Source: Thermopetrobacter sp. (GTDB lineage: Bacteria > Pseudomonadota > Alphaproteobacteria > Rhizobiales > Aestuariivirgaceae). Taken from it: a stretch of DNA of 13,196 nucleotides. Positions 47 through 3,781 of this stretch are shown piece by piece. Position 1 is the stretch's first letter; the number at the start of each line of letters is the position of its first letter. A program made the translations under genes and the position numbers. A model generated the notes under the pieces. It did not search any database and was not told the DNA's origin. It saw nothing but the letters and a program-made list of their open reading frames with translations. Where the stretch lies: assembly GCA_011374735.1 (NCBI GenBank), contig DRPD01000001.1, positions 1 to 13,196 of the forward strand, written 5' to 3'.

Positions 47-1260
47 GGCTTCTCCCACACCCATTGCAGGACCGGCAGGGCCGGTTTCAAGGCCGAATGT
101 GGGCCGATCGCGGCTTCGGTTTCAACACTCAGGCGTGCCAATTCCCCACCAAATCGCGCCTGACAGGTCAGCAGGGCGCGTTGCGCGCCCAGGGTGACGG
201 CATGGGCGATCAGCACGCCGCCGGGCTTCAGGCGCGCCCGCGCGGCGGCCCTAAGCGCGTCATCGCCCACCGATCCGCCAAGGAACAGCGCATCGGCGGG
301 CGGCAAGGTGGCGAGGGTGTTCATGGCCTCGCCGTGATGCACCCGCAGATGCGGCGCGCCGAGGCGGCGGGCGTTGGCGGCGATCATCTCGCCACGCGCC
401 GCATCGCGCTCGATGGCGTGGGCGGTGGCGTCCGGCCCGGCCAGGCGCAGCCACTCCACGCAGATGCCGCCGCAGCCCGCGCCGATATCGATCAGCGTGC
501 GCCCCGGCGCGGGCAGCAGGCGCGGGATGGTCATGGCCCGCACATGGCGCTTGCTCAGCTGGCCGTCGTGAACGAACATGTCATCGGGCAGGCCCGGCGC
601 CAGCGGCCACCATGCGGCGCCGTCTTCGGCGGCGAGTTCCAGCGCCAGCACGTGCAGATCGGGCACCGATGCCGTGGCGAGGTCATGGGCGGTCAGGGTG
701 AGGTGGCGCTCCTGCGGCCCGTCCAGATGGGCCAGCACATGGGCGGTGCTGCCGCCGAATCCCGTTTCCGTCAGCAGCTCGCCCACCGCCCGCGCCGTCT
801 CCGCTCCGCCGGTCAACAGCATCAGCCGGGCGGCGGGGCGCAGATGGCGGTGCAGCAGCTCCACGGGGCGGCCATGCAGCGACAGCGTTTCCACCCGTTG
901 CAACGGCCAGCCCAGCCGGGCGGCGGCCAGCGCGAAAGCCGACGGCGCGGGATGCACGCTGAGCGCCGCAGGCCCGAAAGCCTCCGCCAGCAGGACGCCG
1001 ACGCCAAATCGGAACGGATCGCCGCTGGCCAGCACGGCGACATGCCGGCCCGCGTCGCGGGCCATGGCGATGGCGTCGCGGGGCAGGGCGAAGGGCTTGG
1101 GCCAGACATGGGCGCGCCGTTGCAATGCCTCCGGCAACGCCGCCTTCAGCCGCTCCGACGTCCAGATGACATCCGCCGATTCCAGCGCCGCGCGGGCGGC
1201 GGGCGCAAGGCCGTCCAGCCCCGCCTCGGTCATGCCGATGACGTGAATGGGCGGCCTCAT
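43..1260 (-). CDS. cobL: Precorrin-6Y C5,15-methyltransferase (decarboxylating)
   Basis: 405 residues, the usual length of CobL, which fuses CbiE and CbiT. The N-terminal tetrapyrrole-methylase half begins with HVIGMTEAGLDGL (residues 6-18) and has the ASGDPFRFGVG loop (78-88) of the CbiE family. The C-terminal half (about 227-405) is a class I SAM methyltransferase: DDMFVHDGQLSKRHVRA (226-242) followed by the glycine-rich LIDIGAGCGGICVEW (256-270). Known for the family: it methylates C5 and C15 of dihydro-precorrin-6 and removes the ring C acetate carboxyl, giving precorrin-8. The start is the ATG at 1260, which overlaps the cobH stop as ATGA and has GAGG five bases upstream. A longer open frame to 1497 lies inside cobH in another frame and is not real. 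Cytoplasmic, second to last visible gene of the cobalamin operon. Confidence 0.95.
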   Translation of the reverse strand: MRPPIHVIGMTEAGLDGLAPAARAALESADVIWTSERLKAALPEALQRRAHVWPKPFALPRDAIAMARDAGRHVAVLASGDPFRFGVGVLLAEAFGPAALSVHPAPSAFALAAARLGWPLQRVETLSLHGRPVELLHRHLRPAARLMLLTGGAETARAVGELLTETGFGGSTAHVLAHLDGPQERHLTLTAHDLATASVPDLHVLALELAAEDGAAWWPLAPGLPDDMFVHDGQLSKRHVRAMTIPRLLPAPGRTLIDIGAGCGGICVEWLRLAGPDATAHAIERDAARGEMIAANARRLGAPHLRVHHGEAMNTLATLPPADALFLGGSVGDDALRAAARARLKPGGVLIAHAVTLGAQRALLTCQARFGGELARLSVETEAAIGPHSALKPALPVLQWVWEKP

Positions 1261-1886
1261 GGCGTCCTCGTGCCGGCGATGACGGCGTTGAAGGCCGCCG
1301 CCGCCATGCCGGCCCCGCCGCGCCGGCCCTTCAGGGTGGCGATGGGGCAGGGAGCGGCCCCGATCAGCGCCCGCTTCGATTCCGCCGCGCCGATGAAGCC
1401 GACGGGAAAGGCGATGATGGCGGCGGGCGTCGGCGCGCCCTCTTCCAGCAGCCGCAACAGGGTGAACAGGGCGGTGGGGGCGTTGCCGATCACGCACACC
1501 GCGCCTTCCAGCTCATCAAGCCAGCGTTCCACGGCCGCCGCGGAGCGGGTGATGCCGCGCTTCTTGGCCAATCGGCCGGTTGCGGGATCGTTCAGGGTGC
1601 AGACGACCTCCACGCCGTCCGGCAGCAGGCGACGGATCAGCCCGGCGCGGGTCATCTCCGCGTCGCACAACACCGGCCGGCCGTCTTGCAGCGCCTTGCC
1701 GACGGCGGCGGGCAGGTGGTCATCGATGACGAGATCGTCGATCACGTCGGGCATGCCGCAGGCGTGGATGATCCGCGCCGCGATGGGCCGGACCGCTTCG
1801 GGCAAGATGCTCAAATCCACCTCCGCCTCGATCATGGCGAAGGAGCGGCGCATGATGGCGGCGGGGTCGTTGAGCCAGGTGTTCAT
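1257..1886 (-). CDS. cobH: Precorrin-8X methylmutase
   Basis: 209 residues, normal for CobH/CbiC. The family pattern is clear: N-terminal DPAAIMRRSFAMIEAE (7-22), then ARIIHACGMPDV (37-48) whose His41 corresponds to the catalytic histidine of the family, VLCDAEMTRAG, VIGNAPTALF and the C-terminal PVGFIGAAESK. The enzyme moves the C11 methyl group of precorrin-8X to C12, giving hydrogenobyrinate (or the cobalt equivalent in organisms that insert cobalt early). The gene overlaps cbiX at its start and cobL at its end by ATGA, implying coupled translation. The Shine-Dalgarno AAGGAG ends only two bases before the ATG, closer than usual, which fits re-initiation after cbiX rather than fresh binding. 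Confidence 0.95.
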   Translation of the reverse strand: MNTWLNDPAAIMRRSFAMIEAEVDLSILPEAVRPIAARIIHACGMPDVIDDLVIDDHLPAAVGKALQDGRPVLCDAEMTRAGLIRRLLPDGVEVVCTLNDPATGRLAKKRGITRSAAAVERWLDELEGAVCVIGNAPTALFTLLRLLEEGAPTPAAIIAFPVGFIGAAESKRALIGAAPCPIATLKGRRGGAGMAAAAFNAVIAGTRTP

Positions 1887-2854
1887 TGCTCCTTCAGGGT
1901 CTTCGGGCCCAGGGGGTGGTCGGCGTGGGGGTAGGGAGGATGGTGATGATGGTGGTCATGGCCATGATCGTGATGATGATGGCCGCCGCCCTCCACGTGA
2001 TGATGATGACTCATCTGCGGCTCGCCCACCTGATGCTCGAAGCCCGGGATCCGCGCGCGATACTTGCACAGCGCGCAGTTCATGGCCGTGTCGCCTTCCA
2101 GTATCCCCTCCGCGCGAGCGATGAAGGTGTCCACCACCAGCGGATGATCGTTCAGATACGGCGCCTTGACGAACTCGATGTCGGAAAAGCGCGCCGCCGC
2201 GGCGTCCACCGCCGAATAGATGCGCTCCACCAGCACGCCGGTGAACAGGAACCACGGAAACACGATAATGCGCCGAAAGCCCAGGCGGGCCGCCCGTTGA
2301 AGCGCCGGGGCGACGAGCGGGAAGGTGACGCCGGAATAGGCCGTCTCGGCCCAGCCGAAGCCGAAGCCCTCGGTCAGCAGGCGGGTCAGCTTGGCCACGT
2401 TGGCGTTGGCGTCCGGATCGGAAGAGCCGCGGCCCACCACCATCAGCAGGGTGTCGTGGCGCGAGATGTGATCGCCCGCCGCCCGTTCCGCCTCTTCGAT
2501 GCGCGCCGCCGCCGCCTTCAGCATGGCCGACGTGATGCCCAGCTCGCGCGCGTAGTCGATGCGCACGCCATGTTCCGCCGCGTAGCGGTTGAGCACCGAG
2601 GGGATGTCGTTCTTCGCATGCCCGGCGGCGAACAGCATGCCGGGCACCGCCAGGATGCGTTCGCAACCCTTTTTCCTGAGCGCGTCCAGCCCGTCGCGGA
2701 TGATCGGCGTGGCGAACTCCAGATAGCCGTGGGCCACCGGCCAGCGCCCGCCCACCTTGTCACGCACCTTCCGTGCCAGCCGCGCGAATTCGGCCACGGC
2801 GCGCGCATCGCGGCTGCCATGGCCGCAGATCATCAGGCCCGTTCTGCCGCTCAT
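1883..2854 (-). CDS. cbiX: Sirohydrochlorin cobaltochelatase, long His-rich form
   Basis: 323 residues, a two-domain CbiX of the long type. The first chelatase half has LMICGHGSRD (7-16, His12 as the metal-site histidine) and AAGHAKNDIP (76-85, His79). The second half has VVGRGSSDPDANAN (139-152), where Arg replaces the GHGS histidine, and FPWFLFTGVLVERI. A C-terminal tail adds M-x-C-x-x-C (258-263, Cys260 and Cys263), known in CbiX as part of an Fe-S site, and a very His-rich segment (283-310). Family role: inserts Co(II) into sirohydrochlorin or a related precursor; the His tail is thought to bind or store cobalt. It is first of the cbiX-cobH-cobL-cobI chain. Its own Shine-Dalgarno is weak (GGGG about 11 bases upstream), and an upstream 18-codon ORF stops four bases before the start, suggesting translational coupling. 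The His codons make 1930-2015 low-complexity DNA. Confidence 0.93.
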   Translation of the reverse strand: MSGRTGLMICGHGSRDARAVAEFARLARKVRDKVGGRWPVAHGYLEFATPIIRDGLDALRKKGCERILAVPGMLFAAGHAKNDIPSVLNRYAAEHGVRIDYARELGITSAMLKAAAARIEEAERAAGDHISRHDTLLMVVGRGSSDPDANANVAKLTRLLTEGFGFGWAETAYSGVTFPLVAPALQRAARLGFRRIIVFPWFLFTGVLVERIYSAVDAAAARFSDIEFVKAPYLNDHPLVVDTFIARAEGILEGDTAMNCALCKYRARIPGFEHQVGEPQMSHHHHVEGGGHHHHDHGHDHHHHHPPYPHADHPLGPKTLKEQ

Positions 2855-2858
2855 GGGA

Positions 2859-2915
2859 TCAGCCCCGCCAATGGCCGCGGGAACAGGCGAGCGGATGTGG
2901 GAAAGTGGTTCTCAT
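2859..2915 (-). CDS. Putative 18-codon leader ORF coupled to cbiX
   Basis: The ORF reads MRTTFPHPLACSRGHWRG and then stops. It has the best ribosome binding site of the cobalamin region, AAGGAGG with five bases to the ATG. Its stop lies four bases before the cbiX ATG, in a different frame (offset 61 bases), so it is not an N-terminal extension of CbiX. I recognise no family; two His, one Cys and a Trp are present, but no transmembrane segment. The arrangement suggests that ribosomes load on this ORF and re-initiate at cbiX, whose own site is poor. It could be a coupling device, a regulatory leader peptide or a decayed gene start. Translation is inferred from the SD and spacing alone. Confidence 0.5.
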   Translation of the reverse strand: MRTTFPHPLACSRGHWRG

Positions 2916-2945
2916 GACGTCCTCCTTGACGATGGGATCACGCAA

Positions 2946-3030
2946 GGCAGGCGTCGGAAGATCGTGCAGTCGCGGACTGTTGGCCCCCGGATTGGGTCGG
3001 CCGCACCGCTGAGCGCCTTCCAAGCACTGC
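2946..3030 (-). promoter_or_regulatory. Reduced cobalamin-riboswitch-like element upstream of cbiX
   Basis: On the minus strand, in order: GGAAGGCG (3021-3014), GCGGTGCGG (3009-3001), CCCAATCCG (2996-2988), CCGCGACTGCACG (2975-2963) and CCGACGCCTGCC (2957-2946). These resemble, in the same order, the cobalamin riboswitch elements GGUGCGG..CC-AAU-CCG, CCCGCAACUGU and the B12-box end CCGAAGACCUGCC. GGAAGGCG can pair with CGCCTGCC at seven of eight positions as a closing stem. The canonical GGGAA just before GGUG and the peripheral CACUG/GGGAAGG arm are missing, so the element is about 85 bases rather than about 200. It lies between the HAD stop and the leader ORF of the cobalamin operon, where such a switch is expected. 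It may be a compact variant, a decayed switch or a chance likeness. Confidence 0.42.
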
Positions 3031-3040
3031 GTCAATCGGC

Positions 3041-3781
3041 TTACAGGGCCGGGCGCCGGCCGTCAACCGGGATGCCGAGCCAATCGAGCGCCGCCAGCGC
3101 GTCGGCCGCCACGTGATCGGCCAGCCGCGCCAGCTGGTCATGGCCGGAGGTGCCGGACAGCACGCCGATGAACAGCGCGCAGCCGGCGGCGCGGGCCATC
3201 TCGCCGTCCTGCACGTTATCACCAATCACCACGGTGCGATCAGGTGGCGCGCCGGTGGCGGCGGCGAAGGCATGGACGGGGTCGGCGGCCGGCTTGGGGT
3301 GCGGCACGTCATCGACGCCGGCAGCGAAGTCGAACAGGTCGGCGAGGCGGAAGGAAACAATGGCCTTGCGCACCGATTGCGGCGAGTCGTTGCTGATGAC
3401 CCCCAGCTTCACGCCCCTGGCCCGCAAACGCTCCAGGCGGCGGCGCAGTTCGGCCATGTCGATGAGCGGATGGGCCGGCAGCTGAAGGCCGCGGCGGGTG
3501 ATGCGTTCGATCATGTCCGCCTCGCTCCAGCCGGCGCTCAGCGGCCGCCACAGGCGGGCCAGATCGGCGATGGTGCCGGCCGCCCATACCGAGCCGGGGA
3601 TGCAGGCGTCGTTCGCGGCGTCGTATCCGGCCGCCGCCAGCAGCCGCCCGGCGCGCGCCGTATCATGGCCGGCGAACTCCCATGCCAGCTCCTTCACCAG
3701 CGGCGCCCAGGTGCGTTCGAAGTCCACCAGCACGCCGTCCTTGTCGAAGATGACGGCGCCGATGTCGCGCCCATTCATCAT
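3041..3781 (-). CDS. HAD-superfamily hydrolase, phosphoglycolate-phosphatase-like
   Basis: 246 residues with all four HAD motifs. Motif I is VIFDKDGVLVD (10-20, nucleophile Asp13 and Asp15), motif II is GVISND (127-132, Ser130), motif III is HPKP (161-164, Lys163) and motif IV is VIGDNVQDGEM (185-195, Asp188 and Asp192). A helical cap (about 21-110) lies between motifs I and II, as in subfamily I phosphatases of the Gph type. It probably removes phosphate from a small metabolite in the cytoplasm, but the substrate cannot be read from the sequence. The start overlaps the nitroreductase stop (ATGA), so the two are co-translated. The ATG at 3778 is an equally possible start. Whether transcription continues into the cobalamin genes, about 125 bases on, is open. 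Confidence 0.88.
   Translation of the reverse strand: MMNGRDIGAVIFDKDGVLVDFERTWAPLVKELAWEFAGHDTARAGRLLAAAGYDAANDACIPGSVWAAGTIADLARLWRPLSAGWSEADMIERITRRGLQLPAHPLIDMAELRRRLERLRARGVKLGVISNDSPQSVRKAIVSFRLADLFDFAAGVDDVPHPKPAADPVHAFAAATGAPPDRTVVIGDNVQDGEMARAAGCALFIGVLSGTSGHDQLARLADHVAADALAALDWLGIPVDGRRPAL

Follow-up and report, generated by a model that had tools for sequence, protein, structure and literature searches.

The leader upstream of cbiX in the 13,196-nucleotide stretch of Thermopetrobacter sp. DNA analyzed here (the window) is one copy of an RNA family that is conserved in the Alphaproteobacteria. On comparative evidence from sequence, this family, which we term cbiX RNA, occurs mainly in Hyphomicrobiales in front of cbiX-cobH-cobL and rarely in front of cobH or cobE, and an earlier observation of such a leader is thereby confirmed. 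The fold, the gene context and a pair of mutually exclusive helices are all supported by comparison of the loci. We consider it likely that cbiX RNA is a cis-regulatory family which arose from the 5' half of the cobalamin riboswitch and switches translation, the putative signal most likely being a corrinoid.

The leader lies on the minus strand between an open reading frame for a HAD hydrolase, which ends at 3041 about 10 nt before the element, and cbiX (1883..2854, minus strand; Pfam CbiX, 171.7 bits). Downstream are cobH (CbiC, 1257..1886, minus strand; Pfam CbiC, 216.7 bits) and cobL (CbiE plus CbiT, 55..1257, minus strand; TIGR02467 and TIGR02469 above cut-off), and the start of a CobI-like reading frame was read by eye at the left end of the window. 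The C-terminal part of CbiX (1921-2010, minus strand) seemed histidine-rich when its repeats were read by eye. Between leader and cbiX there is an 18-codon reading frame (2859..2915, minus strand) whose stop codon is 4 nt before cbiX. At this place other loci often have a gene for a small protein of membrane type in which HPGH..GH.H motifs occur. In both loci tested, L004 (1596-1796) and L055 (1221-1424), this small first gene was identified as DUF6732, for which we found no naming paper in the open PMC literature. The 18-codon frame of the window has the same position as these two genes and may be what is left of a DUF6732 gene.

An earlier note on this DNA had described the leader as a compact cobalamin-riboswitch-like RNA, and the letters it reported are present on the minus strand, namely CCTTG at 2947-2943, CAAGG at 2928-2924, TTGACG at 3035-3030, and GGAAGGCG and CGCCTGCC within its interval. 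When the leader was searched for in 40 related genomes, a common core of about 28 nt was found in congeners and in other genera of the family; loci L002-L010 have this core with cbiX downstream (three of them are also L051, L064 and L065). R1, a covariance model from a hand-set structure on five relatives with the window excluded, scored 40.1 bits at 3031-2965 of the window (genome-wide E 8.4e-7); no other place in this genome matched R1 at E<=0.1. That a model without the window recovers the leader speaks for more than chance. At the same threshold 178 of 397 genomes of the order matched, partly through cobalamin riboswitches. By our own count from the R1 matches, not all of which were checked, 102 genomes had a hit of at least 50 bits; the best cobalamin riboswitch identified with R1 (L128) scored 49.3 bits. 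An exact pattern retrieved 45 named records with titles referring to Hyphomicrobiales or one of its genera, to Alphaproteobacteria or to a broader group; they include Jiella, Aureimonas, Aurantimonas, Fulvimarina, Devosia, Maritalea, Cucumibacter, Amorphus, Acuticoccus, Aestuariivirga and Taklimakanibacter. Model R2, built from alignment A4 with the window included, matched 18 of 398 genomes of a phylum sample at E<=0.001, all of the window's class, and 49 of 60 genomes of the family at E<=0.01, both counts including cobalamin riboswitches.

In the fold of the family, helix P1 (GCAGC/GCUGC) encloses the hairpin P2 (GUUCC/GGAAC), the linker CUGAAAGCGAU and an arm that reads P3 (UCCGG/CCGGA), UGC, P4 (GGCC-GA-CCC..GGG-GGCC) and AA; the linker of the family is of the CUGAAAGC type. 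Alignment A4 holds 64 loci, of which 59 rows are distinct since duplicates remain (e.g. L061/L118, L062/L084 and L072/L121). It leaves out L001, L006, L007 and L009, which are the same places as the window, L065, L051 and L064, as well as L011-L050, loci on contigs equally long as one included, and L053 and L101, where the element is at the contig end. Alignment A6 has 22 distinct rows without the window and comprises 17 loci of the order without RF00174 match, from 20 lower-scoring loci that we chose from the R1 matches, and six loci outside the order without canonical core. All were found with R1 and none with the pattern; the contig of L163 is equally long as that of L083, a locus in A4. 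In the seed alignment A3 the window and L003/L010/L002 were left out because the MAFFT alignment A1 had placed P1 of the window in the P2 columns.

In A4, whose pattern-found loci are fixed by the exact pattern in part of linker and arm, 97.6% of 1281 cells were paired versus 93.3 in shuffled alignments, both sides had changed in 9 of 22 pairs (5.8 shuffled) and compensatory cells numbered 64 versus 15.3. The signal in A6 was 96.8% of 476 cells paired versus 79.2, both sides changed in 19 of 22 pairs (9.9 shuffled), 95 compensatory cells versus 25.2 and a covariation score of 0.656 versus 0.279. With the structure slid along the alignment, pairing reached at most 54.6% (A4) and 52.5% (A6); both alignments were fitted to the structure, and those based on R1 are biased towards the structure of that model. 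RNAalifold on A4 alone predicted P1, P2 and most of P4, and did not predict P3.

The copy in the window (P1 to P4, 2965..3031, minus strand; included in A4) keeps P1, P3 and P4 and has lost P2. Its P1 pairs GCAGU (3026..3030) with ACUGC (2966..2970), as against GCAGC/GCUGC in the relatives, in which this helix covaries. The linker region (3010..3025) has gaps at the P2 columns of A4, where the relatives have their hairpin. P3, which also covaries, pairs GCGG (3006..3009) with CCGC (2972..2975) in place of UCCGG/CCGGA, and the P4 arm GGCC-GA-CCC-AAUCC-GGG-GGCC (2982..3002) is common to the cobalamin riboswitches of the relatives. At 40.1 bits, compared with up to 98.6, the window scores low, and its copy, being without P2, could be a reduced one. 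Minimum-energy folds of the window contain P4 and a hairpin at the Shine-Dalgarno (SD) sequence, with P1 and P3 missing, and the window folded alone had no extra stability over shuffles (z 0.09, 0.43 and -0.92). The interval of the earlier note needs correction: the conserved element is 3031-2965, and the leader as a whole runs from 3031 to 2913, so that the platform extends past the low end of that interval. In a congener (genome G003), the copy before cbiX at L005 (1489-1564, minus strand) has a decayed look, the 3' strand of P1 and that of P3 having been lost.

Gene context was kept across the family. In 62 of the 64 loci the 1.5 kb downstream contained cbiX in the same orientation; L070 is followed directly by cobH, and in L088 only 3 nt of sequence follow the element. 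Three of the 20 lower-scoring hits in the order carry RF00174 and have no cbiX in about 6 kb. Among the other 17, without RF00174, cbiX was present in 14, cobH-cobL in L165 and cobE in L161 and L167; in L161 cobE is followed by a tetrapyrrole methylase gene, cobA by position. As the three exceptions precede cobH-cobL or cobE, the context in the checked loci is always early corrin synthesis. Thirty loci were fetched from a class sample. Seven of these, the window included, lacked the canonical core and all seven preceded cbiX. R1 hits outside such leaders were cobalamin riboswitches, with the canonical core in 23 of 23 and no cbiX in the 1.5 kb fetched.

We then compared cbiX RNA with known riboswitches. 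The Rfam scan of the window gave no match to the cobalamin family, even with lax filters. No RF00174 match was obtained at the elements of the window, L002-L010 and 20 of the 30 loci L051-L080, nor at those of L111, L090, L061, L078, L002-L004 and L010, and the covariance model of the AdoCbl variant (RF01689) had no match in the window, L002-L010, L111, L090, L061 and L078. The search with both models that the note had proposed therefore came out negative. In these scans, wide and local, matches at the elements were at chance level only. The P5/junction core CCCCGCAACUGU was present in none of the 64 loci, window included, up to 400 nt downstream, and the same was true of the C-CGCAACTG core within 400 nt. 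A GGGAA block pairing with CCU was not found and GCGAU-type bases stand there instead. The covarying structure of A4 and A6 contains no P5 or P6 and hence no four-way junction P3-P6 with L4-L6 contact. The absence of standard parts that the note had described is borne out by the missing Rfam cobalamin match and the missing core in all 64 loci. Present as in RF00174 are the P4 arm with L4 (GGUG..AA..CC) and the placement before B12 genes. By four tests with negative outcome cbiX RNA is not a member of RF00174, though probably derived from it.

The likeness between the two RNAs covers the 5' hairpin, the AAAG linker, the P4 arm with its inserted helix (GGUGC..GACCCAA..CCAA) and the CUGCC that follows, and both control B12 synthesis genes. 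Closing of the RF00174 5' strand with the 3' CUGCC strand is also similar to an alternative helix of cbiX RNA described below. Unlike RF00174, cbiX RNA is without GGGAA, the CCCGCAACUG core, P5, P6 and the CACUG/GGGAAGG arm, has a new short P1 and measures about 67-80 nt versus about 200. When R1 was run on 30 RF00174 loci of relatives, 16 matched inside the riboswitch at E<=1, the best with 39.6 bits (L040), and the riboswitch copy of L157 scored 44.3 bits. The Jiella/Aurantimonas leaders L090, L102 and L111 begin with GACGGTGCCCC, the same as the L040 riboswitch. The inserted L4 helix with CGACCCAA of cbiX RNA was also seen in the RF00174-type loci L128, L134, L139, L140, L040 and L035, some of them from other orders of the class. 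Judged from these sequences, cbiX RNA is most simply read as a descendant of the 5' half of a cobalamin riboswitch; this leaves room for convergence in the likeness of one arm.

The AdoCbl-variant RNA is likewise a reduced relative of the cobalamin riboswitch and is listed as marine (Weinberg 2010, PMC2864571). No match to the NiCo (czcD) riboswitch was obtained in the Rfam scan of the window. That RNA is tied to metal transport and has a four-way fold. It is described as cobalt-sensing (PMC7689651). We found no description of an element like cbiX RNA in the open PMC literature, as far as its texts were accessible, and supplements or subscription journals may hold one; the family is apparently undescribed.

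The second part of the leader can form two competing helices. In the predicted folds of the window the anti-SD strand GACGCCUGCCUUG (2943..2955, minus strand) forms a hairpin with the SD strand CAAGGAGGACGUC (2916..2928, minus strand), which contains the SD AAGGAGG at 2927-2921 (P(unpaired) 0.02). Alternatively, the 5' segment (P1 5' strand plus P2; 3013..3031 in the window, minus strand) may leave P1 and pair with 2964-2946, with a duplex energy of -20.2 kcal/mol. Both pairings were assayed in 37 of the 64 loci, which remained when the 55 having a usable start codon were thinned at 85% likeness. Anti-SD and SD strands of the same locus gave a mean of -17.2 kcal/mol versus -13.2 with the partners of other loci, and the 5' segment with the anti-SD region gave -21.4 versus -18.9. 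After subtraction of row and column means, the observed value was reached by 0 of 20000 permutations for each of the two pairings, and leaving the window out did not change the result (0/20000). Controls gave 9083 (linker), 3620 (3' strands of P1/P3) and 17248 (5' segment with SD) of 20000; the P3/P4 arm with the anti-SD region was mildly positive (709/20000). The segment cut from the alignment at P2 gave -5.1 kcal/mol for the window; it was then set by hand and later taken as a longer column range. The longest perfect SD helix averaged 7.4 bp versus 5.8 in shuffles. An interaction in which only the P2 loop kisses the anti-SD strand was considered and rejected because the longer 5' segment has the larger own-partner excess (centered values -2.49 versus -1.10 for P2 loop plus 3' strand).

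The two helices are mutually exclusive, and the one with the 5' segment excludes P1 and P2 as well. These results uphold the suggestion that CCTTG/CAAGG pairing could affect translation, the anti-SD/SD helix being locus-specific. The end-to-end closing stem of GGAAGGCG with CGCCTGCC was not upheld: these letters belong to the competing helix with the anti-SD strand (-15.6 kcal/mol for the shorter segment), and we reject them as P1 because the covarying closing pairs are GCAGC/GCUGC. A closing stem does covary in the relatives, but it is not the one proposed. Energies favor the SD-covered state without ligand in the window (-48.3 kcal/mol at the minimum, -42.2 for the best SD-free structure) and in most of six relatives tried, and hence reaching the on state may depend on kinetics or on a further factor. 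At L178 (2970-3047, minus strand) P1 is directly followed by AGGA, which resembles an SD, and by the start codon of a reading frame of the HPGH type, so that P1 itself could cover the ribosome site there.

In the mechanism that we propose, the anti-SD strand would cover the SD when the aptamer-like domain is folded and held, and the first reading frame and cbiX would be off. Upon opening of the domain, its 5' strand would capture the anti-SD strand and the SD would be free. In the window, ribosomes would be passed on from the 18-codon frame to cbiX 4 nt later. The signal would most likely be a corrinoid, giving feedback on corrin-ring synthesis. According to a review, the P3-P6 four-way junction, organized by the L4-L6 T-loop contact, makes the main contact to cobalamin (PMC10907184). 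As this junction is missing, corrinoids would need another mode of binding, unless the signal is a different one.

The latter possibility leads to a rival reading, in which the same RNA switch would respond to Co2+, sirohydrochlorin or another early intermediate through a new pocket in linker and arm. We give it a minor chance. It accords with the loss of the cobalamin-contacting junction (PMC10907184), with a cobalt chelatase often being the first gene, once preceded by a HupE/UreJ-type transporter gene (L068), and with full-size cobalamin riboswitches in 35 of 40 relatives, in two of which (G013 and G016) a full-size copy lies in the same cluster, separated from cbiX RNA by cobN and located about 6.6 and 8.8 kb upstream of it on the same strand. 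Full-size riboswitches of this kind are those of L156 (11710-11922, minus strand) and L157 (14166-14379, minus strand), which precede cobN and share cluster and strand with cbiX RNA, so that one B12 cluster holds two related RNAs. The window's genome (92.7% complete) had no RF00174 match; 8 of 10 congeners had one. However, the element also precedes cobH without cbiX (L070/L158, L165) and cobE (L161, L167), so the target that these loci have in common is neither CbiX nor cobalt insertion; moreover, no Rfam metal riboswitch matched the window.

A translational element without small-molecule ligand, be it an arm bound by protein or a basal brake coupling cbiX to upstream translation, is in our view unlikely. 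The arm is strictly kept in both types of RNA, as expected of a protein site, and ribosomes could melt the element because the upstream HAD frame ends so close to it. Against this stand the ligand-binding nature of the parent riboswitch and the conservation of unpaired linker and T-loop-like bases along with the helices, in a sample that has selection bias. That the leader is a decayed cobalamin riboswitch or a product of chance is highly improbable in spite of the lack of an Rfam match, single-sequence folding no better than shuffles, the missing P2 of the window and the lost 3' strands of L005, since many genera and families share this short form, with covariation and with the gene context kept. 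The same conservation excludes the coincidence that the earlier note had allowed for and makes simple decay unlikely for the family, if not for the P2-less copy of the window, which could be reduced. For the translational switch that we favor, we tentatively offer a more specific version as a possibility: a halved riboswitch in which linker and L4-type arm are closed by a new P1 and make up a new pocket. Its signal would be a different one, either a corrin intermediate, Co2+ or a corrinoid bound anew, and it would switch translation of early corrin genes beside full-size riboswitches in the same genomes.

cbiX RNA could be proposed as a new family for Rfam, and it would be a new class if its ligand differs from that of the cobalamin riboswitch. 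One arm is nearly letter-for-letter identical in both RNAs, so that the role of L4 can be tested. If our reading is true, a large riboswitch was pared down to about one third of its length with its task kept or changed, and the corrin-ring operon of many Alphaproteobacteria would have a control element that is missing from Rfam.
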